A DNA stretch of 42,883 nt from positions 1 through 42,883 of the forward strand of contig JAQIBZ010000088.1 in the NCBI GenBank assembly GCA_027858815.1. Reading direction: 5' to 3'. Both the position numbers and the translations under genes were made by a program. How positions within the stretch are numbered: position 1 is the first letter of the stretch; each line of letters starts with the position of its first letter. Positions 3,027 to 40,037 of this stretch are shown in pieces. The stretch comes from Desulfobacteraceae bacterium. GTDB lineage: Bacteria > Desulfobacterota > Desulfobacteria > Desulfobacterales > Desulfosalsimonadaceae. The notes under the pieces were generated by a model that was not told the origin of the DNA, made no database searches, and worked only from the letters and a program-made list of their open reading frames with translations.

Positions 3027-4445
3027 TCATTCCATTATACCTTCCCCATCCAAGGGAATATCCCATTTTTTCATGTATTTCCAGATTGAGACGCGGCTGA
3101 GTCCTAACCAACGTCCGGCTTCAGCTTTATTCCAGGCACAGCTTTTCAGAGCAGCAGTCAATTCAGTCTTTGTCAGTTTAGTTCTTTTTTTTATTTCAGT
3201 CTTATTTGTCGTCTGATCAGGAGCAGGAGCCTCCTTCATCTGAAGAATCTCTATCGGAAGATCAGCTAATTCTATCTGACTGCCGTGGCAGACAACAAAG
3301 GCATGTTCGATTGCGTTTTTCAATTCCCTGACATTTCCCGGCCATGCATAGGCCATTAGTATCTTCAACGTTTCACCGGAAGCACCGGATATCTGTTTAC
3401 CTGTTTTAGTGTTAAATAACTGAATAAAATGTTTGGTCAATATAGGGATATCTTCCTTTCTGTTTCTGAGCGGTGGCAGGTGAATCGGATATACTTTAAG
3501 GCGATAATAAAGGTCTTCGCGGAAAAGACCTTCACGAACCAGAGAAAACAGGTCTTTATTGGTCGCCGTGATAACCCGGAAATCCGTTTCACGTTTAAGG
3601 GATTCGCCGACACGTTCGATTTGTCGCTCCTGAATCGTGCGAAGCAGTTTGAGCTGAATAAATGGGCTGATTTCACCGATTTCATCTAAAAAAACGGTTC
3701 CGCCGTCCGCCTCTTCAAATCGTCCTTTTCGGTCTTTATGTGCGCCGGTAAACGCCCCTTTAATGTGGCCGAAGAGTTCGCTCTCAAGTAATGACTCGGA
3801 AAGCGCGCTGCAGTTAACGGTTACGAGTGGGCCATCTGCGCGGTCGCTATTATAATGATTATCACCGGCCACAAGTTCTTTTCCGGTGCCGCTTTCAACC
3901 TGAATTAAAATAGTCGTATCACTTTTTCCCGCAGCAGTGATTGCCCGATAGACGCCACGCATGGTTCGGCTTTTGCCGATGATATTAGAGAACTGGTGCG
4001 TCTCAGCGAGTTTTAATCCGGCTTCTTTTGTTTTTTCCTGGGCTTCGATAAGTTCCGTCAAATCCGTAATGGTTTCAACAACACCTACCACCACATCGTT
4101 ATTGTTTTTGACAACACAGGCATTTTTTAAAACCGTAATCATTTGGCCGTTTTTGTGAACAAGTTTACATTCTTTTGAATTTACACGACCTTTTTCAAAT
4201 ATTTTGCATTGATGGACATTTTCGGGGCAAGTGCTTTTATAACATTGGTTAAATTGAATCATGCTGCATGTTTTGCCGATGGCTTCATGAGCATCATAAC
4301 CGGTTATTTTTTTCATGGCTGGATTCCAGGAAGTAATCGTACCATCCGGATCCAGAGTAAAGACGCCTTCTGCCATTGAATCCAGCAGCAGAGTGGCAAA
4401 TTGGTTGTTCCAGGTCGGTGGTTTAAAAGAATTCAAATTTCTCAT
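3027..4445 (-). CDS. PAS domain-containing sigma-54-dependent transcriptional regulator
   Basis: PAS ([35 protein letters not shown]), GAFTGA motif, Walker [14 protein letters not shown]-terminal Fis-type HTH ([33 protein letters not shown]). Confidence 0.92.
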
Positions 4446-4789: not shown

Positions 4790-6190
4790 ATGGTTCGTTT
4801 GATATCAGTGAAATATAATTTTTTGATTGTATGCTTAATACTTTTGGTAATCATTGTCTCGTCCGGTGCTGAGGGTAAGATTGCTTTTCATGAAAAGGGT
4901 CAGCAGCTGAGAATTGTTTTCAGTGGCAACCTTATGGGAAATATAGAGCCGTGCGGCTGAAGTGAAAATCAGGCGGGGGGGCTTTCCCGCCAGAAAACCT
5001 TGATTGATCGGTTGAAAACTGAATCCGGCAATGAGTCAACACTGCTTATCAATGCGGGTAATAATTTTGATATTACGTCTCACGATATTCACATTGCGCC
5101 TTCATATATTGCCAGAGCACTGGAACTCAAAGGAACGGAAGTGATAGCACCCGGCGTTCAGGAAATTACATACGGATCCGAAAAATTCCATAAGTTGATA
5201 GATCAGACGTCTGTCCGGGTTGTGTCCGCCAATGTGCCGAGTTTTATGCCGTATGTTATTTTATCAAAAAACAGGGGCAAAACAAACGTTTTAGTGACTT
5301 CCGTGGTAGATCCGGAATTGCTTTCAAGTACCGTACGAATGGAAAATAAGATTACAGATCCGGTATTGGCACTTCGTAGGATTCAGCAACAGGTTTCCCA
5401 TGATCTTTTTGTCGTTGTCATACATGCCGGTTCTGAAAAGTTATTATCTGTTATTGAAAATTGTCCGGGGATTGATCTGGTCATTGACGCGATATCCCGT
5501 GATGTTGAACAGAAAAATGAACACAAATGTTCCCCGCCGGTTGTTTCAAACAACGAAAACGGAATGTTCGTGGCTTATGTAGATTATGATAGTGAAAATT
5601 CAGCTGGTTCTTATTTTTTAAAACCGGTAAAATTAAGAGCAGTCGTGGGAAAAATCGTTGAAGATCCCGTAATCTCGAACCTTGTAAAAGAGTATGAACA
5701 AAAACGTCAAGCCGGGTTTCAGGATTTATCCGAGGAGTCGATGTTTTCGGCGTCACTTTTTGAAGGTCCTTCTCAATATTTGGGAAGCCGGTCATGTAAT
5801 CTGTGCCATGCTGAGATTAATGAGAGGTGGGCAAACAGTCGCCATGCAAATGCAATGGACAGCCTGGTAAGAAAATCTAAGCACAAGGATCCGGATTGCC
5901 TGTCTTGTCACGTCACTGGTATGGCAGATAACGCTTCGGCATCTGAATTTTTAAGGTTAAATAAAAATCATCCGATGGCAGGTGTCCAATGTGAGGCATG
6001 TCATGGACCGGGTGCTGATCATTCACAGAATCCCTCAGATATTGCCATGCTATCGGTTAATGAAAAAACATGTATACGTTGTCATACAAGTTATACAGAC
6101 CCTGATTTTAATTACAGTCATGAGATCTCTATTGTACATAACGATTGCTTTAAAGATCAATTGATTCAGAAATTTAAATCGTTTTTTTGA
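4790..6190 (+). CDS. Candidate selenoprotein: metallophosphatase-like N-terminal region plus cytochrome c554-like tetraheme domain; Sec at codon 57 (TGA 4958-4960)
   Basis: ATG 4790, signal-anchor VRLISVKYNFLIVCLILLVIIVSSGA; in-frame TGA then continuous ORF to 6190; GNIEPCG[TGA]SENQAGGLSRQKTLIDRL corresponds to the EPCGC..NQ.GGL.RR motif of homologous cytochromes; four CXXCH (CNLCH, CLSCH, CEACH, CIRCH); hairpin 4972-4991. Confidence 0.85.
4972..4991 (+). promoter_or_regulatory. Candidate bacterial SECIS hairpin
   Basis: GGCGGG / loop GGGGCTTT / CCCGCC; loop starts with GG about 17 nt after the TGA. Confidence 0.7.
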
Positions 6191-6200
6191 TCAATTAAAT

Positions 6201-6458
6201 TCAACTTTTCATAGGGGGATTTTTCTTTTTGAAATACAGTACCAGGCTTTTCCCCAGAAGAGGAATAAGCAGTGTGTCAATGTTTCGGATGAGCCTGGGT
6301 TTTTCCATAATATCCCATGTCAGCAGCCGATGATAGAGATTCACAGGTAGTGAATCATCACGCCCCGGGCCGACCAGACATTTCAGCCACCAATAAGGTG
6401 TATGCAGGCTGTGTGCATAATGCGAGCCCTGTTTGATCAATCCTATTTTCTCAAACAT
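6201..6458 (-). pseudogene. C-terminal fragment of a class I SAM-dependent methyltransferase
   Basis: HYAHSLHTPYWWLKCLVGPGRDDSLPVNLYHRLLTWDIMEKPRLIRNIDTLLIPLLGKSLVLYFKKK resembles the methyltransferase C-terminus; no SAM-binding N-terminal part upstream. Confidence 0.6.
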
Positions 6459-31220: not shown

Positions 31221-34200
31221 TTACCTGCATCCACTTACGCACATAGACGCACCAAACATCATATCAAAACCGAAATCCCACCCCTCAACCGAATCTATAC
31301 CTAAAGTTCCATAAGCATAACCAACACTAACCGTGGTTAAAGATTTCCCCTTATCTGTAAAGGCAGCAGTTAATGAAATAAAAGATACAGGTCCCCAAAG
31401 ATAATTAGGTCCTTCAAAAATTGCTGGGATTTTCAGTTCTATACTTCCAATAGACCCCCCAGTCCTTGTTGGCTCGCTTATTGATAAACCAGCCATAATA
31501 ATAGCAAATTTTGAATGATATGCTTTCAATCCTTTTGGAGGTTCCGATTGAAGATCAGCAAATATAAGTCCAGCGGCCGCCCGCCCTATTTTTGCACCAC
31601 GAGTTCCTATATATAATTTCCCCCTCCATTTAGTAATCCCTCTCTTTCCATATGATGTTAAGATGCTTTGGGTTCCTAAATTTGTAAGTCCTCCCATTAT
31701 AGCAAGTGAAGCACCAATAGTAGTTAAGGTCGAGAATTCCCCGCTCGGATCAACAAACATGACGGGATTCATGTTCGCATACATGTATTTATGAAGCGTT
31801 ACCGGATCAGACGTCTTACCTGCATAAGGATCAACAGTCACGAACCTGCCGATGGTGGGATTATAGTATCTTGCCCTCAGGTAATAGAACCCGGCATTGG
31901 GGTCGTATTGTTCTCCCGTAAACAGATAACTGTTTTCCGTGGTGCCGGTGCTATTGATCAGGCTTCCGAACGCTTCGTACGTGTAAGTATCAGTCACGGA
32001 TTCAGAACTATCGGTCAACGCCCGAGTGGAACCGAGGCCATCGTAGTGATAATAAGAATCAACACCCGCCCTTTTCTGGCTGACAAGATCGTCGCCGTAC
32101 ACATATTGAACTGTCAAAGAACCGAGATTGTCTCTTTCTTCCAATACTTGCGCGTACTGTCTATTTTTGTCAACGATAAAAGCTGTTTCAGCCCCGTCAA
32201 CATCCTGCGCCACCCGGATTCCGTCCAAGTCGTACTGGTAAGCAGCCCTTGAAGACAAGGTCTCCATGCCGGTCAACTGATTTTCAAAATTATAATCGTA
32301 CGCTATGGACTCTCCGGCAGCAGATTTGGCAATGGTGTTGCCGTTATTATCGTAGCTATACGTATAAACATGCGCCGGGCCGGTCTCCGTCAACAGGCGA
32401 TCATTGATGTCATAATTATAAGAAATCACTCCGGACGAATCGGTCTTACTCAACCGGTTACCCTTGCCGTCGTAAGTGTAGGCAATGGTTTCATTGCCGT
32501 TTGCCGGATCAAGGATTTCCTCCTGCGTGAGCCGATAGATATCATCATATGTATAATTCACCTCCCGGCCCGTGTTTTCAGATACGCTCAACCGGTTTCC
32601 GGCAGGACCAAGGGTGTAATAGTAACTTGATATTATATCGCCATTTGATTTCCGATTTTCAAGATACGTGAGCCGGTTCAAACTATCATACGTATAAGCA
32701 GCAATGGTACCGTTTGGATTTTCTACCTGTTCCCGGTTGCCGTTTTTATCGTACGTATATGCAGTAACCCCGCCATCCGGGTCTGTCACTGTTGCCAAAC
32801 GGCTTAACGCATCATACGTATACGTGGTGGTACCGGAGGCTACGGTCACAGAAGTGCGGTTTCCTTTGGGATCGTATGTGTAAGAGATAATGCTCCCGTC
32901 CGGATCTGTTATCGATGCTAAACGGCCCCGGCTGTCATAAAAATACTGTGTGATCCCTCTGCTGTCGGTTACGGTTTCCCGCTTACCGTCACCCAAATAT
33001 GTATAGCTGATCGAGCTGTTGTCCGGGAATATTTTTTCCGTCAACCTGCCACAACAGGGTGAGTATTCATAGATGACCGTATCACCATTAAAGTCCGTAT
33101 GGGAGGTCATGTTGCCTACAGCATCGTACATCCAGGATTCGCTCATGCCAAGCGGAAGCGTATGAGACACCTGACGGCCTATATCATCATAGGTCCAGTA
33201 TTCCGTATTCCCATTGGGATCGGTATGAGACAGCCGGTTACCGACTTCATCGTATGTATATTCAGTAAGATTTCCGAAAGCATCCGTTACTGACACAAGG
33301 TTTCCGGCCACATCGTACCCAAAAAGAGTAACATTTCCGGCCTGGTCTGTCTCAGTTGCTTTCCGTCCCAGTGCATCGTACCCGGTTGCAGAGAATGTGC
33401 CGTCAGGATAGATGGTTTTCACCTGGCGGTTCAATCCATCATACTCATAAGTTGTTGTCGCACCCTTGGGGTCTGTCATGGATACCTGGTTTCCGGCTGC
33501 ATCATATCCAAAAGATACGGTATTGCCTAATGCGTCAACAACCGCACTCCTGCGACCGGCTTCATCATAAACAAAATCCGTCTGATTGCCGTTTTCATCA
33601 ATGGTGGCATTCATGCGACTGGCATCGTCAAACACCATTTCAGAAGAACTGCCGTCCGTATGGATCACAGCAGTCATCTGGTTATTTTTATCATATTCAA
33701 AATTCGTTATTCTTCCTGCCCGGTCTGTGGTGGATGTGCGGTTACCTTCGCCGTCATACGCAGTCAGCATGGAGGTACCGTCTGCATAATGGATGGCGGT
33801 CTGCTTGCCGTTATTATCGTATTCAAACAGCGTCTCCGCACCATTTTTATCAATGATCCGGGATTCTTTATCCAGATAATTGTATTCGGTCCGGGTCTCA
33901 TTTCCCATGGGATCAACCGTACGGGTGAGACGGTTCCGGATATCATAGGTATTGGTGGTGGTCATAGTCACCGTTTCACCGGTTTCCATGGTCCGGGAGA
34001 CAGACTCGCTCAGTTCGTTTCCGTAACGATCAAAGGACCATTCGGTAACCTTGCCGTTGGGTGCGATTTCCTTGGTCCGGTGGCCGTAAAAATTATATTC
34101 AAATGTTGTGACATTGCCCAGTGCATCGGTTTCCGTGAGCACATTGCCTTTGGTATCATGGGTATATGCCGTGACATTGCCAAGGACATCGGTTTTTTCC

Positions 34201-37200
34201 AAAAGGTTGCCCAGTGCATCATAAACATTAGCAATCATGTTCCCGTTAGGATCAGTCTGCGTCAGCACGTCATTCCGATCGTTGTTTGTATACGTGGTGG
34301 TATTTCCAAGCGGGTCGGTTTCTGTCAGCATGTTGCCGGATTCATCATACGTCCAGTATGTGGTGTTGCCCAAGGCATCGGTTTCAGAGGTCTTATTGTT
34401 GTTTTCATCATAGGCCCAAAGAGAAACACGCCCGTCCGAGTCGGTTTTTTTGGTAACATTGCCCACATTGTCATATTCATACACTGAGGTAAAACCCCGG
34501 CGGTCCGTGATCTCCTGGATATGGTTGGGAACATCGAACCCATAGATGATCTTTCTGTTATCCGCATCAACCAGGCCTATCATTCGGCCAGTAGCGTCAT
34601 ATTCAAACTGTCCCAGAATGGTTCCGTCCGGTGCTTTAATATCTTTTAAGACCGGTTTTTCAAAAATACCCTGTTCATAGGCATATTTGTTCATCATTCG
34701 AACGGCAAACGGCTCGGTGCCTGATTTAATCACCTGTTCGAGCATGCCGTTTTCATCATAATGGTATTCAATGGTTAAACCGAACGGATCGGTAATGGTT
34801 TCGATCCGGTTGCCCACGCCTCGTGTAAAGGCGATGCTTGCGCCGGATGAATGGGTAATGCCCGCATCACTGTAAGCAACGGAATTGCCGTACACATCCG
34901 TGATGCTTTCAATTCCGTTTTCCATGTGAAGGATGTATTGGGTGCCGTCCGGCCGGGTATACCGATACCGTTCTGGTTCGAACGGGTCTGTTCCCCATTG
35001 CATGAGATCGTTTCCGGTGGTGAGCATCAGGCTGCTGCTCGCCACGCCTAATGCTTCAAGGGTTCCCTCAGTACCGTCAATGGCTACAAATTTTGCACTT
35101 AAATTTGAGTGGTTGATAATTGGAACAAGGACGCTGGATTTGGGATTGACATCCATTTTAAACCGCAGGGTCTCTTCATCGGAAAACCGGATCACCACTT
35201 CATGACGGTATTTTTCGATTAAATAATAGGTGGTTAAAAAACCGCCGCCAATTTCTTCCGCCCATCCGGCATCCAGTTCCCGGGTGGTCTGGGGCTTGAC
35301 CGTAGAAGACGGCAGGCTCCAGCCGGGTCCGAAATCACCGGTTGTATCCCGGCTGTCGTATTCGCGTTCCAATGCCAGGGGAAAACCGTTGTTCGGGATG
35401 TTAACATCCATGCCCGGCAGAATCACATGCCCGACTTTCAATTGTCCGTCCACCAGGGCGCAGCCCTGGTCATAGGCTGTGTTTCCGGCCAAGTCCTGGG
35501 CATACAGCAAAAGTTCGTATACCCCGTTTTTCAGGATCGTCGGGTCAAACGTGCCGAGGGTGCCGGTAAAGCTGTTGCCGGATCCTTCGGCAAACTTTTT
35601 CCAACTGCCTGTACCGTATGGCCGGCAATACAGTGAATACATCACACCACTGGTGTCGGACACCTCTCCCATGACATCATAAAGGTCCGTTACCTCCGCG
35701 CAGTCAGTTTCAGACAGGGTGGCGGTCGGTGGCGTGGTGTCAAAAGGATCAAATACCACAAATGTTTTACTGTCTGTTGTTGTATACCCGGCAGCATCGG
35801 ATGCGCTCAACACAACCGTATAAAAACCGGCAGACGGAGCCGTGTAAACAACTTGCCCATCGACTACCGTTAGCGGGTCTTCATTCACCGTCAGGCTCTG
35901 GTCGACAACGCCGACATCATCACCGGTCCAGGCAAAAATAGTGACGGTTTCTCCGATATTGACATTGTCATCAGACAGTCCAAGGTTCACATACGGCGGA
36001 GTTTCGTCTGTTCCGCCCCATGCGCCCAATGAAATATTCATATCCACCGGCGTGTCATACGGAACCATCATTCCGGGCAAAGGGGTTTGAGAAAACACCT
36101 GCCCGGCGGGTTGTGAAGAAATATAAACCTCGGCCAGGTCCCCCACGATCAGGTGCCCGGTGGCAAGGATGGCTGATTCCGCATCCGTTTGGGACATGCC
36201 GGTGAGATCCGGCACCTCGACCTTGGGTACTCCCAGGGACACCACCAGATCAACACTGATTCCAACCTCCACAACCGAACCGGCTGCTGGCTCCTGGGTG
36301 ATCACATGGTCTTCGGCAATGGTCTGGCTGTAGGCATGGTTTGATACGCCGACAACAAGCTGAGCATCGGTAAGGGCGGTTTCCGCATCCCATTGGGACA
36401 TGCCCACAAGATCCGGAACCTGGGTTTTTATTACATCCACCTGACAGTCACAGTCATTGTCAATACCGTCAACAGTGGTTTCTGCAATTTCATAACCGGC
36501 AATTTGGGTATAATCCGGTTCCTGCCAGCCGTCTGCACCGCCGCATACTTTTGTTGCGCCGGCACAAACTCCGCATTGTTTATCCGCCGGCGGAGGTGTG
36601 ACGCCTTCGTCAATAAAGCCGTCACAGTTATTGTCCAGACCATCGCAGATTTCCAGCTGCGGATCGACAGATCCCACACATTCGTCCCATACACCATTTA
36701 CACAGGTCTGCATGCCCATTTCACAGGTACCAACTGAGACACCGCACACGCGTTCTTCTCCGCCATTGCATTCCATGGTGTCTACCACGCTCAATGTGAA
36801 ATACTGTCGATCATAAGCACCGACAGGATCGGTGACTTTGACCGAGACCATGTATTCTCCGGCCGTGTAAGCATCTGGAGACCAGAAGATGAGACCTGAT
36901 GTTTCATCAATGTCCATGCCGTCCGGCGCTATTTCAAGTGTATAGCAAAAGTCTGCGTCTTCATTGTCAATGACATCGAGTTGATAAAGATAATCCAGGC
37001 CTTCTTCCACTTCAATAACCGGCTCGGACGTGATTTCCGGAGACGTATTGGAAAATCCGTCCCATACCGATAAGATGGCAAGATCATACAATAATGGCGA
37101 TTCATCACCTTCCTGAATAGTTAATGTCACATTAACTTCAATATAGCGGGCATCCGGCAAATCCGGTATAATGACACCGCTTTCTGCTTCTTCCCATTGG

Positions 37201-40037
37201 GACCAGGTTGACTCGTCATTTGAAGTGCGGGCCTTGACCTTAATACGGGTTCCGGGCGGTTCATAGCTGTGCCATGAAACGATACCCCATGGAGTGTTTT
37301 CAAATTCACTGTCATAGACGATGGACCAACTGCCGTTTTGGGAGGTAATGTTCCGGGATATAAAGCCGGTCATATCGCTGTAATTGTAAGGATCAGGGTG
37401 GCCTGTTTGTGTAAACTCGACAGAATTTGTAGTCGGATTAATACGCTGGACGCTATTACCATAGCGACAGGTTACCCATACTTTTTCCTCGGAATCGACC
37501 GCAACGCCGGTTGGGTGATTACCAACCGGAATTTGATTTAATATATTCCCTGTTGCAAGATCAAACCGGAAAACTTTATTGTGAGAGGATATGGCCATCC
37601 AACCGTTTCCATTGGAATCTGTAGCAACACCTCTACCATATCCACCAGTGTATTTCTGAAAAATCCACCGTTTATTTACAGGGTCATATTTCCGAATCCT
37701 TCTTGAAGAATACCCTGCTGAATAAATATATCCCTCCGTATCAATGCCTATTCCATAAACATCGCCGTCTGCTCGAATAAACGAGAGCGTGTGTGTGCCT
37801 TCAGGATTAAACGATGTCCCGGCATTCGGATTGTCAACCCTTGTCAGGCCACTGTGCCCTCTTGCCGAAATCCACAAAGTACCGTTTTTATCAACAAGAC
37901 CGCCATAACATCTACGACCGCTGTTAATGGTTTTTAGTTTTGTACCGGTATGACCGTCGTAATAAAACAACATGTAATCATCATATCCGCCCAGCCAAAC
38001 ATTATCATTAGAATCAATGGCGACTGCTCTCACACCGCTGGGTGCTGGAAGATAAAATTCAATGGCCTCATCCTGTCCCCAGGTCAATATGTTGGTTGCA
38101 CCAGTAGACGTAGTGATGACCCCGTCACCGTTCTTGTCTCGGGGATATAACATGATCTTGGTGGCTGACGCCGTGTTTCTGTTCCCGACCCATAGATTGC
38201 CCACGGAATCCACGGTCGTGCGGGAAGGATTGGTTCCGGTTGACGGACCGGTCCGGTATCTGCCGAGCTCTTCACCGGTAATCGTGTTGATTTTGGATAC
38301 TGTGCCTTGGCCTGAATTTGCGATCCAGATAAACGGAAGGGTGTTGACGCCGGCAGTAAGCTGAAGAGAATTGTCATAAGGTTCAATGTTTTCCAAGGTA
38401 CCTTCTTCAAAATTGTCTTCTGTAAATACACCCTGCGGTCTAACGGTTACTGTTGCCGAAGCAAACGCCGTACCGCCGGGACCGGTTGCGGTTATGGTAT
38501 AGTTCGTTGTTTCTGAGGGAGATACTCTTGTCGAACCGTTTGGTCCGATCATGCCGACACCATTATCGATAATTACCGTATCCGCATGCTCGGAGGTCCA
38601 GCTTAAAATCGAAAATCCGCCTTCAAGGATTGTATCCGGATCGGCATTCAACGTTACGGTCGGAATATGATAAACCGTCACGATTGCAGAAGTTGTTGAC
38701 GTGCCTCCCGGGCCTGTTGCCGTAAACGTATAGGTAGTGGTTTCATCAGGAGAAACAAACATTGATCCGTTTACCGCAATATCTCCGATGCCGTTGTCGA
38801 TCACAACGGTATCCGCGTTTTCCGATGTCCAGGATAATTCGCACGAATCACCTTCAATAATTGTTGCCGGATTGACCGCAGCAGTTATTTCCGGCAATGG
38901 GATAACCGTAACAAAAACACTTGCGGTAGCTGTCCCCCCGGGGCCGGTGGCCGTGACTATGTACGTCTTGTCAACGACTGGTGACAGCGGTATTGTACCG
39001 TTTAATTCAACTTCACCAATTCCGTTGTCGATGACAACCGTGTCTGAATGCAGAGATGTCCAGGAAAGATCAAAACTTTGTCCCTCAATAATAGTCGAAG
39101 GGGTGGCTGTCAGAGTCACTCGCGGTAAAGGAATGACAGTCAGGGTCACACTGTCAGACATTGATGCCCCGACATTGGATGCCGTAATTGTATAGGTGGT
39201 AGTTTCTATTGGTGAGACTGTCATGGAGCTATTTAAGACAACATCGCCTATGCCATTATCTATGGATGTTTCAAGCGCAAAATCAGATATCCATGAAAGC
39301 TCGGCGGATTGGCCTTCTATAATGGTATCCGGCATAACGCTCAAATCCACAGTGGGCGGGTTCTGGCAAAATTCAATATTTAAATAGCTCCCCGGAGTAC
39401 TGGAAAGTTTCACCGTGATCGAGTTGGTTGCGGATAAATCTAATGCGGCTGCAAGAAGATAGTCTTTATTTTTAAAATCTTTTTGTTCAAAAATTTCCAG
39501 ACCATTGACATAAATCAAAGCACTGCTGACCCTGTTGCTGCCGTCGTCATCCCCATTAATAACTGTCAAAAATCCTTCACCAGGGGTGGCGATAAATGTT
39601 TCCGTATACACATTCGGTTTGCCTTTGGTCCTGACAAATTGGCTGGGGCCGAATATCAATGGACAATATGTTTTGATTTCAATGGTCAGATAAGACCCGG
39701 GAGTGCTGCTGAGATTTAATATAATCGTATTAATTTCTGATAATTGAACCGGTGCTTTTAAAATATCGGTGTAGTGGTGGAAATCGTTCGGTTCAAAAAT
39801 TAAATCATCATTAATATATATACTGGCACTTGAAACTCTATTGTTTCCATTTTCATCGCCATTTGTGATGAACAGATAATATTCTCCGGGGACTGATTCA
39901 AACGTTTCGGAATAGGTATTCGGTTCACCGGTTGTGCGGGTATACACATTGGGACCAAACAAATTGGCCGCAGATCCTGTAGCCACTATAAAAAAAGAAA
40001 TACCGAAAACAATTAAAGCAAATAGATTTTTTTTCAT
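31221..40037 (-). CDS. Giant secreted RHS/YD-repeat protein (2938 aa)
   Basis: Signal peptide; two N-terminal repeats (FGPNVYTRTTGEPNTYSETF / FGPSQFVRTKGKPNVYTETF); tandem Ig-like (TIIEGQS..LSWTS); NHL/Vgb-like propeller; MopE-like CDGLDNNCDGFIDEG; PASTA-like VPDLVGMSQWDAE; many YD repeats; RHS core YYLRARYYNPTIGRFVTVDP; variable C-terminus. Confidence 0.93.
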   Translation of the reverse strand: MKKNLFALIVFGISFFIVATGSAANLFGPNVYTRTTGEPNTYSETFESVPGEYYLFITNGDENGNNRVSSASIYINDDLIFEPNDFHHYTDILKAPVQLSEINTIILNLSSTPGSYLTIEIKTYCPLIFGPSQFVRTKGKPNVYTETFIATPGEGFLTVINGDDDGSNRVSSALIYVNGLEIFEQKDFKNKDYLLAAALDLSATNSITVKLSSTPGSYLNIEFCQNPPTVDLSVMPDTIIEGQSAELSWISDFALETSIDNGIGDVVLNSSMTVSPIETTTYTITASNVGASMSDSVTLTVIPLPRVTLTATPSTIIEGQSFDLSWTSLHSDTVVIDNGIGEVELNGTIPLSPVVDKTYIVTATGPGGTATASVFVTVIPLPEITAAVNPATIIEGDSCELSWTSENADTVVIDNGIGDIAVNGSMFVSPDETTTYTFTATGPGGTSTTSAIVTVYHIPTVTLNADPDTILEGGFSILSWTSEHADTVIIDNGVGMIGPNGSTRVSPSETTNYTITATGPGGTAFASATVTVRPQGVFTEDNFEEGTLENIEPYDNSLQLTAGVNTLPFIWIANSGQGTVSKINTITGEELGRYRTGPSTGTNPSRTTVDSVGNLWVGNRNTASATKIMLYPRDKNGDGVITTSTGATNILTWGQDEAIEFYLPAPSGVRAVAIDSNDNVWLGGYDDYMLFYYDGHTGTKLKTINSGRRCYGGLVDKNGTLWISARGHSGLTRVDNPNAGTSFNPEGTHTLSFIRADGDVYGIGIDTEGYIYSAGYSSRRIRKYDPVNKRWIFQKYTGGYGRGVATDSNGNGWMAISSHNKVFRFDLATGNILNQIPVGNHPTGVAVDSEEKVWVTCRYGNSVQRINPTTNSVEFTQTGHPDPYNYSDMTGFISRNITSQNGSWSIVYDSEFENTPWGIVSWHSYEPPGTRIKVKARTSNDESTWSQWEEAESGVIIPDLPDARYIEVNVTLTIQEGDESPLLYDLAILSVWDGFSNTSPEITSEPVIEVEEGLDYLYQLDVIDNEDADFCYTLEIAPDGMDIDETSGLIFWSPDAYTAGEYMVSVKVTDPVGAYDRQYFTLSVVDTMECNGGEERVCGVSVGTCEMGMQTCVNGVWDECVGSVDPQLEICDGLDNNCDGFIDEGVTPPPADKQCGVCAGATKVCGGADGWQEPDYTQIAGYEIAETTVDGIDNDCDCQVDVIKTQVPDLVGMSQWDAETALTDAQLVVGVSNHAYSQTIAEDHVITQEPAAGSVVEVGISVDLVVSLGVPKVEVPDLTGMSQTDAESAILATGHLIVGDLAEVYISSQPAGQVFSQTPLPGMMVPYDTPVDMNISLGAWGGTDETPPYVNLGLSDDNVNIGETVTIFAWTGDDVGVVDQSLTVNEDPLTVVDGQVVYTAPSAGFYTVVLSASDAAGYTTTDSKTFVVFDPFDTTPPTATLSETDCAEVTDLYDVMGEVSDTSGVMYSLYCRPYGTGSWKKFAEGSGNSFTGTLGTFDPTILKNGVYELLLYAQDLAGNTAYDQGCALVDGQLKVGHVILPGMDVNIPNNGFPLALEREYDSRDTTGDFGPGWSLPSSTVKPQTTRELDAGWAEEIGGGFLTTYYLIEKYRHEVVIRFSDEETLRFKMDVNPKSSVLVPIINHSNLSAKFVAIDGTEGTLEALGVASSSLMLTTGNDLMQWGTDPFEPERYRYTRPDGTQYILHMENGIESITDVYGNSVAYSDAGITHSSGASIAFTRGVGNRIETITDPFGLTIEYHYDENGMLEQVIKSGTEPFAVRMMNKYAYEQGIFEKPVLKDIKAPDGTILGQFEYDATGRMIGLVDADNRKIIYGFDVPNHIQEITDRRGFTSVYEYDNVGNVTKKTDSDGRVSLWAYDENNNKTSETDALGNTTYWTYDESGNMLTETDPLGNTTTYTNNDRNDVLTQTDPNGNMIANVYDALGNLLEKTDVLGNVTAYTHDTKGNVLTETDALGNVTTFEYNFYGHRTKEIAPNGKVTEWSFDRYGNELSESVSRTMETGETVTMTTTNTYDIRNRLTRTVDPMGNETRTEYNYLDKESRIIDKNGAETLFEYDNNGKQTAIHYADGTSMLTAYDGEGNRTSTTDRAGRITNFEYDKNNQMTAVIHTDGSSSEMVFDDASRMNATIDENGNQTDFVYDEAGRRSAVVDALGNTVSFGYDAAGNQVSMTDPKGATTTYEYDGLNRQVKTIYPDGTFSATGYDALGRKATETDQAGNVTLFGYDVAGNLVSVTDAFGNLTEYTYDEVGNRLSHTDPNGNTEYWTYDDIGRQVSHTLPLGMSESWMYDAVGNMTSHTDFNGDTVIYEYSPCCGRLTEKIFPDNSSISYTYLGDGKRETVTDSRGITQYFYDSRGRLASITDPDGSIISYTYDPKGNRTSVTVASGTTTYTYDALSRLATVTDPDGGVTAYTYDKNGNREQVENPNGTIAAYTYDSLNRLTYLENRKSNGDIISSYYYTLGPAGNRLSVSENTGREVNYTYDDIYRLTQEEILDPANGNETIAYTYDGKGNRLSKTDSSGVISYNYDINDRLLTETGPAHVYTYSYDNNGNTIAKSAAGESIAYDYNFENQLTGMETLSSRAAYQYDLDGIRVAQDVDGAETAFIVDKNRQYAQVLEERDNLGSLTVQYVYGDDLVSQKRAGVDSYYHYDGLGSTRALTDSSESVTDTYTYEAFGSLINSTGTTENSYLFTGEQYDPNAGFYYLRARYYNPTIGRFVTVDPYAGKTSDPVTLHKYMYANMNPVMFVDPSGEFSTLTTIGASLAIMGGLTNLGTQSILTSYGKRGITKWRGKLYIGTRGAKIGRAAAGLIFADLQSEPPKGLKAYHSKFAIIMAGLSISEPTRTGGSIGSIELKIPAIFEGPNYLWGPVSFISLTAAFTDKGKSLTTVSVGYAYGTLGIDSVEGWDFGFDMMFGASMCVSGCR

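Follow-up and report, generated by a model that had tools for sequence, protein, structure and literature searches.

The gene at positions 4790-6190 (plus strand) of the window, the 42,883-nt stretch of DNA analysed here in its entirety (Desulfobacteraceae bacterium, GCA_027858815.1, contig JAQIBZ010000088.1, positions 1-42,883; genome label G000), almost certainly encodes a member of the UshA-like PCGU family in which, judging from sequence comparison, the UGA at 4958-4960 is read as selenocysteine. Taken as a whole, the product is quite likely a selenocysteine-containing, exported tetrahaem protein of this family that has lost its metal site and acts as a periplasmic oxidoreductase. The original prediction had called a selenoprotein at this place, and that call is borne out by the conservation of the TGA, by an alignment column restricted to Sec and Cys, by constraint and covariation in the SECIS hairpin and by the presence of sel genes in the genome.

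The frame opens at ATG 4790 and closes at the TGA stop 6188-6190, with the in-frame TGA 4958-4960 as its sole interruption. Reading across this codon gives ...FSGNLMGNIEPCG-U-SENQAGGLSRQKTLIDRL..., with the motif GNIEPCGU-SENQAGGLSR. This TGA is unique in the 42.9-kb window in being preceded by at least 30 and followed by at least 200 open codons. The encoded protein comprises, in this order, a hydrophobic N-terminal segment, a UshA-like domain and four CXXCH haem motifs, and the following features were mapped:

4790-6190, plus strand: complete selenoprotein gene, 466 residues, with UGA as Sec57; same-genus relatives keep the TGA at 56-57% identity
4790-4870, plus strand: putative signal peptide or signal anchor (residues 1-27), modelled with a hydrophobic helix at 7-26
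4901-5725, plus strand: UshA/5'-nucleotidase-type domain, residues ~38-312; fold match to E. coli UshA
4952-4960, plus strand: Cys55-Gly56-Sec57 motif, with Sec codon TGA 4958-4960; C, G and C/U identical in 39/39 relatives
4972-4991, plus strand: SECIS hairpin, stem GGCGGG (4972-4977) / CCCGCC (4986-4991), loop GGGGCTTT (4978-4985)
5795-5809, plus strand: haem motif 1, CNLCH, residues 336-340; Cytochrome_C554, Pfam PF13435
5897-5911, plus strand: haem motif 2, CLSCH, residues 370-374
5990-6004, plus strand: haem motif 3, CEACH, residues 401-405
6071-6085, plus strand: haem motif 4, CIRCH, residues 428-432

The cytochrome c554-like tetrahaem domain PF13435 was matched with 55.1 bits (cut-off 20.8), together with the four CXXCH motifs, and no lipobox cysteine was seen in the N-terminal signal segment. 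The exported tetrahaem architecture proposed earlier was thus found again, with a signal segment from which export is predicted and all four haem motifs present; the coordinates then given for the frame and its EPCGU codon proved correct to the base. Also confirmed was the observation that the open reading frame track begins at 5000: the mechanical list breaks the gene into 4790-4960 and a piece with a false TTG start at 5000. Standard ORF calling stops at the UGA, and the signal peptide and the active motif are lost from the gene call.

A TGA occupies the identical codon in three relatives of the same genus, G026 (57% identity), G028 (56-57%) and G033 (57%). When compared with these relatives, pN lies well below pS on either side of the TGA, the upstream part comprising residues 38-56. 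Just behind the TGA, pS falls to 0.42-0.47, against 0.52-0.63 overall, which is the expected outcome if the RNA is constrained as well. Over a wider set of 39 relatives, the column of residue 57 holds Sec in 34 and Cys in five, and nothing else. The earlier proposal that the TGA sits at the Cys column of related proteins therefore passed the alignment check, and the family motif EPCGC..NQ.GGL.R given there tested positive. The five Cys (PCGC) homologues are distant, coming from Planctomycetota, Myxococcota, Latescibacterota and Bdellovibrionota. Tetrahaem PCGC versions were seen at L062, L063, L064 and L066 (Planctomycetota, Myxococcota and Bdellovibrionota), some of them below the cut-off of the NCBIfam model NF041198. 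An ordinary stop, in a pseudogene or between two genes, would make this TGA a nonsense mutation or a sequencing error. Traces of pseudogenes do exist in the genus, namely a 3' remnant in G030 and the G033 copy, which is frameshifted further on and lies on a contig whose title gives cov_2.22. Against this, the three relatives from the genus share the TGA at the same codon, as do most of the phylum's NF041198 loci, and purifying selection acts downstream of it. We rejected a nonsense mutation or sequencing error at 4958-4960, since conservation contradicts it, and consider an ordinary stop extremely improbable.

The hairpin and the sel genes argue in the same direction. The original prediction had placed a SECIS-like hairpin about 17 nt behind the TGA; the hairpin is there, and the distance was approximate, the gap from the TGA to the base of the stem being 11 nt and the loop starting 21 nt from the U of UGA. 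A search of the window against Rfam at the gathering threshold gave no matches. Folded by itself, the hairpin is unremarkable against dinucleotide shuffles (z -0.08), the stretch being rich in G. Dinucleotide shuffles were replaced by covariation and by a test in which codons are permuted while the protein sequence stays fixed. The fold check suggested earlier thus failed with dinucleotide shuffles but succeeded with protein-preserving ones, the window stem being stronger than codon shuffles predict (p 0.002). The same holds for 25 of the 34 Sec members at p<=0.05, with a combined p of 1e-25 that is optimistic since related sequences are not independent, and for none of the five Cys members. 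When 30 distinct Sec members were aligned without gaps, 83.9% of the cells of the six-pair helix proved to be paired, and 28 double changes were counted versus 9.9 in shuffled alignments and at most 19 in slid versions of the helix. The 30 nt of the hairpin are nearly invariant although the relatives differ at >40% of residues. In most family members a loop of sequence GGUCU begins at +22, counted from the U of UGA. Codons of a conserved Gly-Gly-Leu make up the loop, so that constraints on RNA and protein overlap there. Such constraint, detected by both codon shuffles and covariation, counts against an ordinary stop.

Also counting against an ordinary stop, the genome carries selB (contig C127), selA (C370) and selD (C660). 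The selD gene (G000:C660:810-1727) in turn codes for a selenoprotein, having a single in-frame TGA, a trait shared with several other members of the genus. No tRNA-Sec was detected above the cut-off in the 663 contigs of the G000 assembly, whereas nine of the 11 genomes of the genus have one. Low-scoring matches in G000 (<=40 bits) were not accepted as tRNA-Sec, because weak matches of similar score occur where a true tRNA-Sec exists. In the relatives examined, tRNA-Sec adjoins a peptidase gene (M20-type, as read from the sequence), and this gene was not found in the G000 assembly either. The joint absence points to an assembly gap, which is the likeliest explanation. Of the machinery whose presence was to be checked, selA, selB and selD were therefore recovered, and the tRNA-Sec gene is missing along with its neighbour.

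The best family match of the window protein is NCBIfam NF041198 (UshA_like_PCGU, 'UshA-like (seleno)protein') with 207.6 bits and E 2.9e-61, below the cut-off of 275 and falling into two pieces. Same-genus relatives score 230.8 and 217.2 bits against this model. Matches over the cut-off occur in 66 of the 395 genomes of the phylum, and among the matches listed all but about 16 contain an in-frame TGA. The window protein carries PCG[U/C] in a UshA-fold domain followed by four CXXCH motifs, and it groups with its same-genus relatives and two more Desulfobacterales proteins (G722 and G625) in a supported clade (99/99). The gene is a divergent Desulfobacterales branch with the same architecture as the known family, formally outside the curated model. 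The family itself is already on record as NF041198, and only the window gene and its divergent clade miss the cut-off. Since ORF calls are cut at the UGA and the curated model misses this clade, such genes are mis-annotated in genomes of sulfate reducers. The family was listed as 'COG0737, UshA-like, CxU' in a 2008 ocean survey (PMC2398784), and UshA-like (seleno)proteins are also covered by later reviews (PMC9312934, PMC13188914). In the literature on MccSep, multihaem selenoproteins and the function of the UshA-like family, no characterised function was found.

The term 'metallophosphatase' applied earlier to this protein holds for the fold and fails for the chemistry. The model of the N-terminal domain aligns with E. 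coli UshA (1ush) over 271 residues with Z 28.3 and rmsd 2.7, and with SoxB at a slightly lower Z of ~26. Eight metal- and phosphate-site residues (D, H, D, N, H, H, H, H/Q) were taken from an ordinary UshA encoded in this genome, and the window protein retains one of them, H212. Family members keep between 0 and 4 of the eight, exactly one being kept in 23 of 39. The columns identical in 39/39 are instead G50, C55, G56, C/U57, G63, G64 and G90 (window numbering), with P54 kept in 38/39. Haem motifs are kept in 34-35 of 39, the remainder being mostly truncated sequences, and every intact member examined has four CXXCH. The whole family thus appears, at the level of its sequences, to have lost the ancestral phosphatase metal site but to have kept both its haems and its site for selenium. 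A rival reading is a functional metallophosphoesterase, nucleotidase or SoxB-type sulfur-ester hydrolase to which a haem domain was added and in which Sec would serve as a metal ligand; it could be reconciled with the UshA/SoxB-type fold and with CGU aligning close to the first metal-binding motif. Such a hydrolase is improbable: the window protein lacks seven of the eight site residues, the 39 members each retain at most four, and the C-terminal substrate-binding domain of UshA is absent, with the tetrahaem domain in its place. We rejected a phosphatase function on the loss of the metal-site residues, without which hydrolysis of phosphate esters is unlikely.

Motif and domain logic lean modestly towards an exported, periplasmic redox enzyme in which a Cys-Gly-Sec centre is wired to haems. 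On the comparative evidence, SelB and tRNA-Sec decode the UGA at 4958-4960 as Sec, guided by the hairpin directly behind it; the protein, given its signal segment and CXXCH motifs, would then be exported and receive four c-type haems. Its UshA-fold N-terminal domain, devoid of a metal site, would probably not hydrolyse phosphate esters, and the conserved reactive centre would be Cys55-Gly56-Sec57, which lies near what was once the first metal-binding loop in the sequence. We infer that the Cys-Sec pair could cycle between a selenolate/thiol state and a selenenylsulfide or substrate adduct, with the tetrahaem domain passing electrons to or from it. Candidate substrates are a chalcogen oxyanion, a persulfide or disulfide, or a metal ion. 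In the predicted structure the haem domain has a pLDDT < 50. In several other, related lineages the gene adjoins genes for multihaem cytochromes, namely a c3-type protein with a cytochrome-b561-like part and a NapC/NirT-type protein rich in haem motifs, and for a DUF1684 protein.

The same evidence, an exported tetrahaem protein, strong conservation limited to PCGU and the haem motifs, and multihaem cytochromes as neighbours, would also suit a binding or carrier protein whose Cys-Gly-Sec captures a soft metal or a selenium, tellurium or arsenic species that the haems then reduce or sense. This is a less probable reading, and no resistance or uptake genes lie next to the window gene. Extending the redox reading to the entire PCGU family, we tentatively propose an as yet unrecognised type of redox enzyme: a former phosphatase fold that would have lost its dimetal centre, with Cys-Gly-Sec near the pocket and a tetrahaem domain wiring it to respiratory multihaem cytochromes, so that a periplasmic substrate could be reduced or oxidised. 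Known since 2008 only as 'UshA-like', the members of this family are pseudo-phosphoesterases in which Cys-Gly-Sec and four haems are strongly conserved, and their function is therefore testable as redox chemistry rather than as nucleotidase activity.

The window gene is monocistronic and lies outside any cytochrome operon. Divergently upstream of it is a gene for a sigma-54 regulator (PAS/NifA-like; 3027-4445, minus strand), and convergent to it is a methyltransferase remnant (6201-6458, minus strand), an 85-residue C-terminal piece. Its full-length counterparts (251 residues) in the same-genus relatives G026, G028 and G033 are intact and likewise convergent, with 75% identity to the piece over 80 residues; the 5' part of the window copy appears to have been lost or displaced. 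No shared operon was found around the window gene, the same-genus relatives having in common only the convergent methyltransferase/glycosyltransferase neighbours. Beside the same pair of genes in G030 (L010 / L156), all that is left of the selenoprotein gene is its final 40-odd codons, a gene loss caught in progress, and six of the 10 other genomes of the genus gave no match to the gene. Together, the patchy distribution and the G030 remnant indicate an accessory trait that the genus can do without and is losing. Elsewhere in the window, positions 31221-40037 (minus strand) encode a protein of 2938 residues that contains RHS repeats and a PASTA domain.

With NF041198 the window protein shares the signal segment, the pseudo-UshA domain, PCG-Sec with GGL and a basic residue after it, the SECIS over the GGL codons and the C-terminal tetrahaem domain, but it scores below threshold and belongs to a separate Desulfobacterales clade. 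The UshA-like selenoprotein family 2 (NF049981) resembles it in its UshA-like fold and in the loop that carries Sec; in contrast to the window protein, its members are shorter, with no CGU motif and no haem motifs seen. Membership in family 2 was rejected on score (35.5 bits, cut-off 140). Two loci of this genus/family, L012 and L013 (genomes G025 and G032), are likely members of NF049981; their in-frame TGA falls in that loop too, and they lack both haems and the UshA metal-site residues. ExtKL (NF040886) and MccSep (PDB 9wt8-9wtc) are, like the window protein, exported multihaem selenoproteins, but there is no sequence match to them beyond the haem motifs (E 0.0012 and 1.8), and ExtKL membership was rejected on score. 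E. coli UshA and the 5'-nucleotidases, as well as SoxB, share the fold of the N-terminal domain; relative to UshA, the window protein is devoid of the metal-site residues and the C-terminal domain and has gained Sec and haems. As for the hairpin, the SECIS of E. coli fdhF, in a reference sequence confirmed as fdhF, has a GGUCU loop at +22, the same as most members of the family, whereas in the window clade these positions read GGGCU and the stem is moved one base outward.
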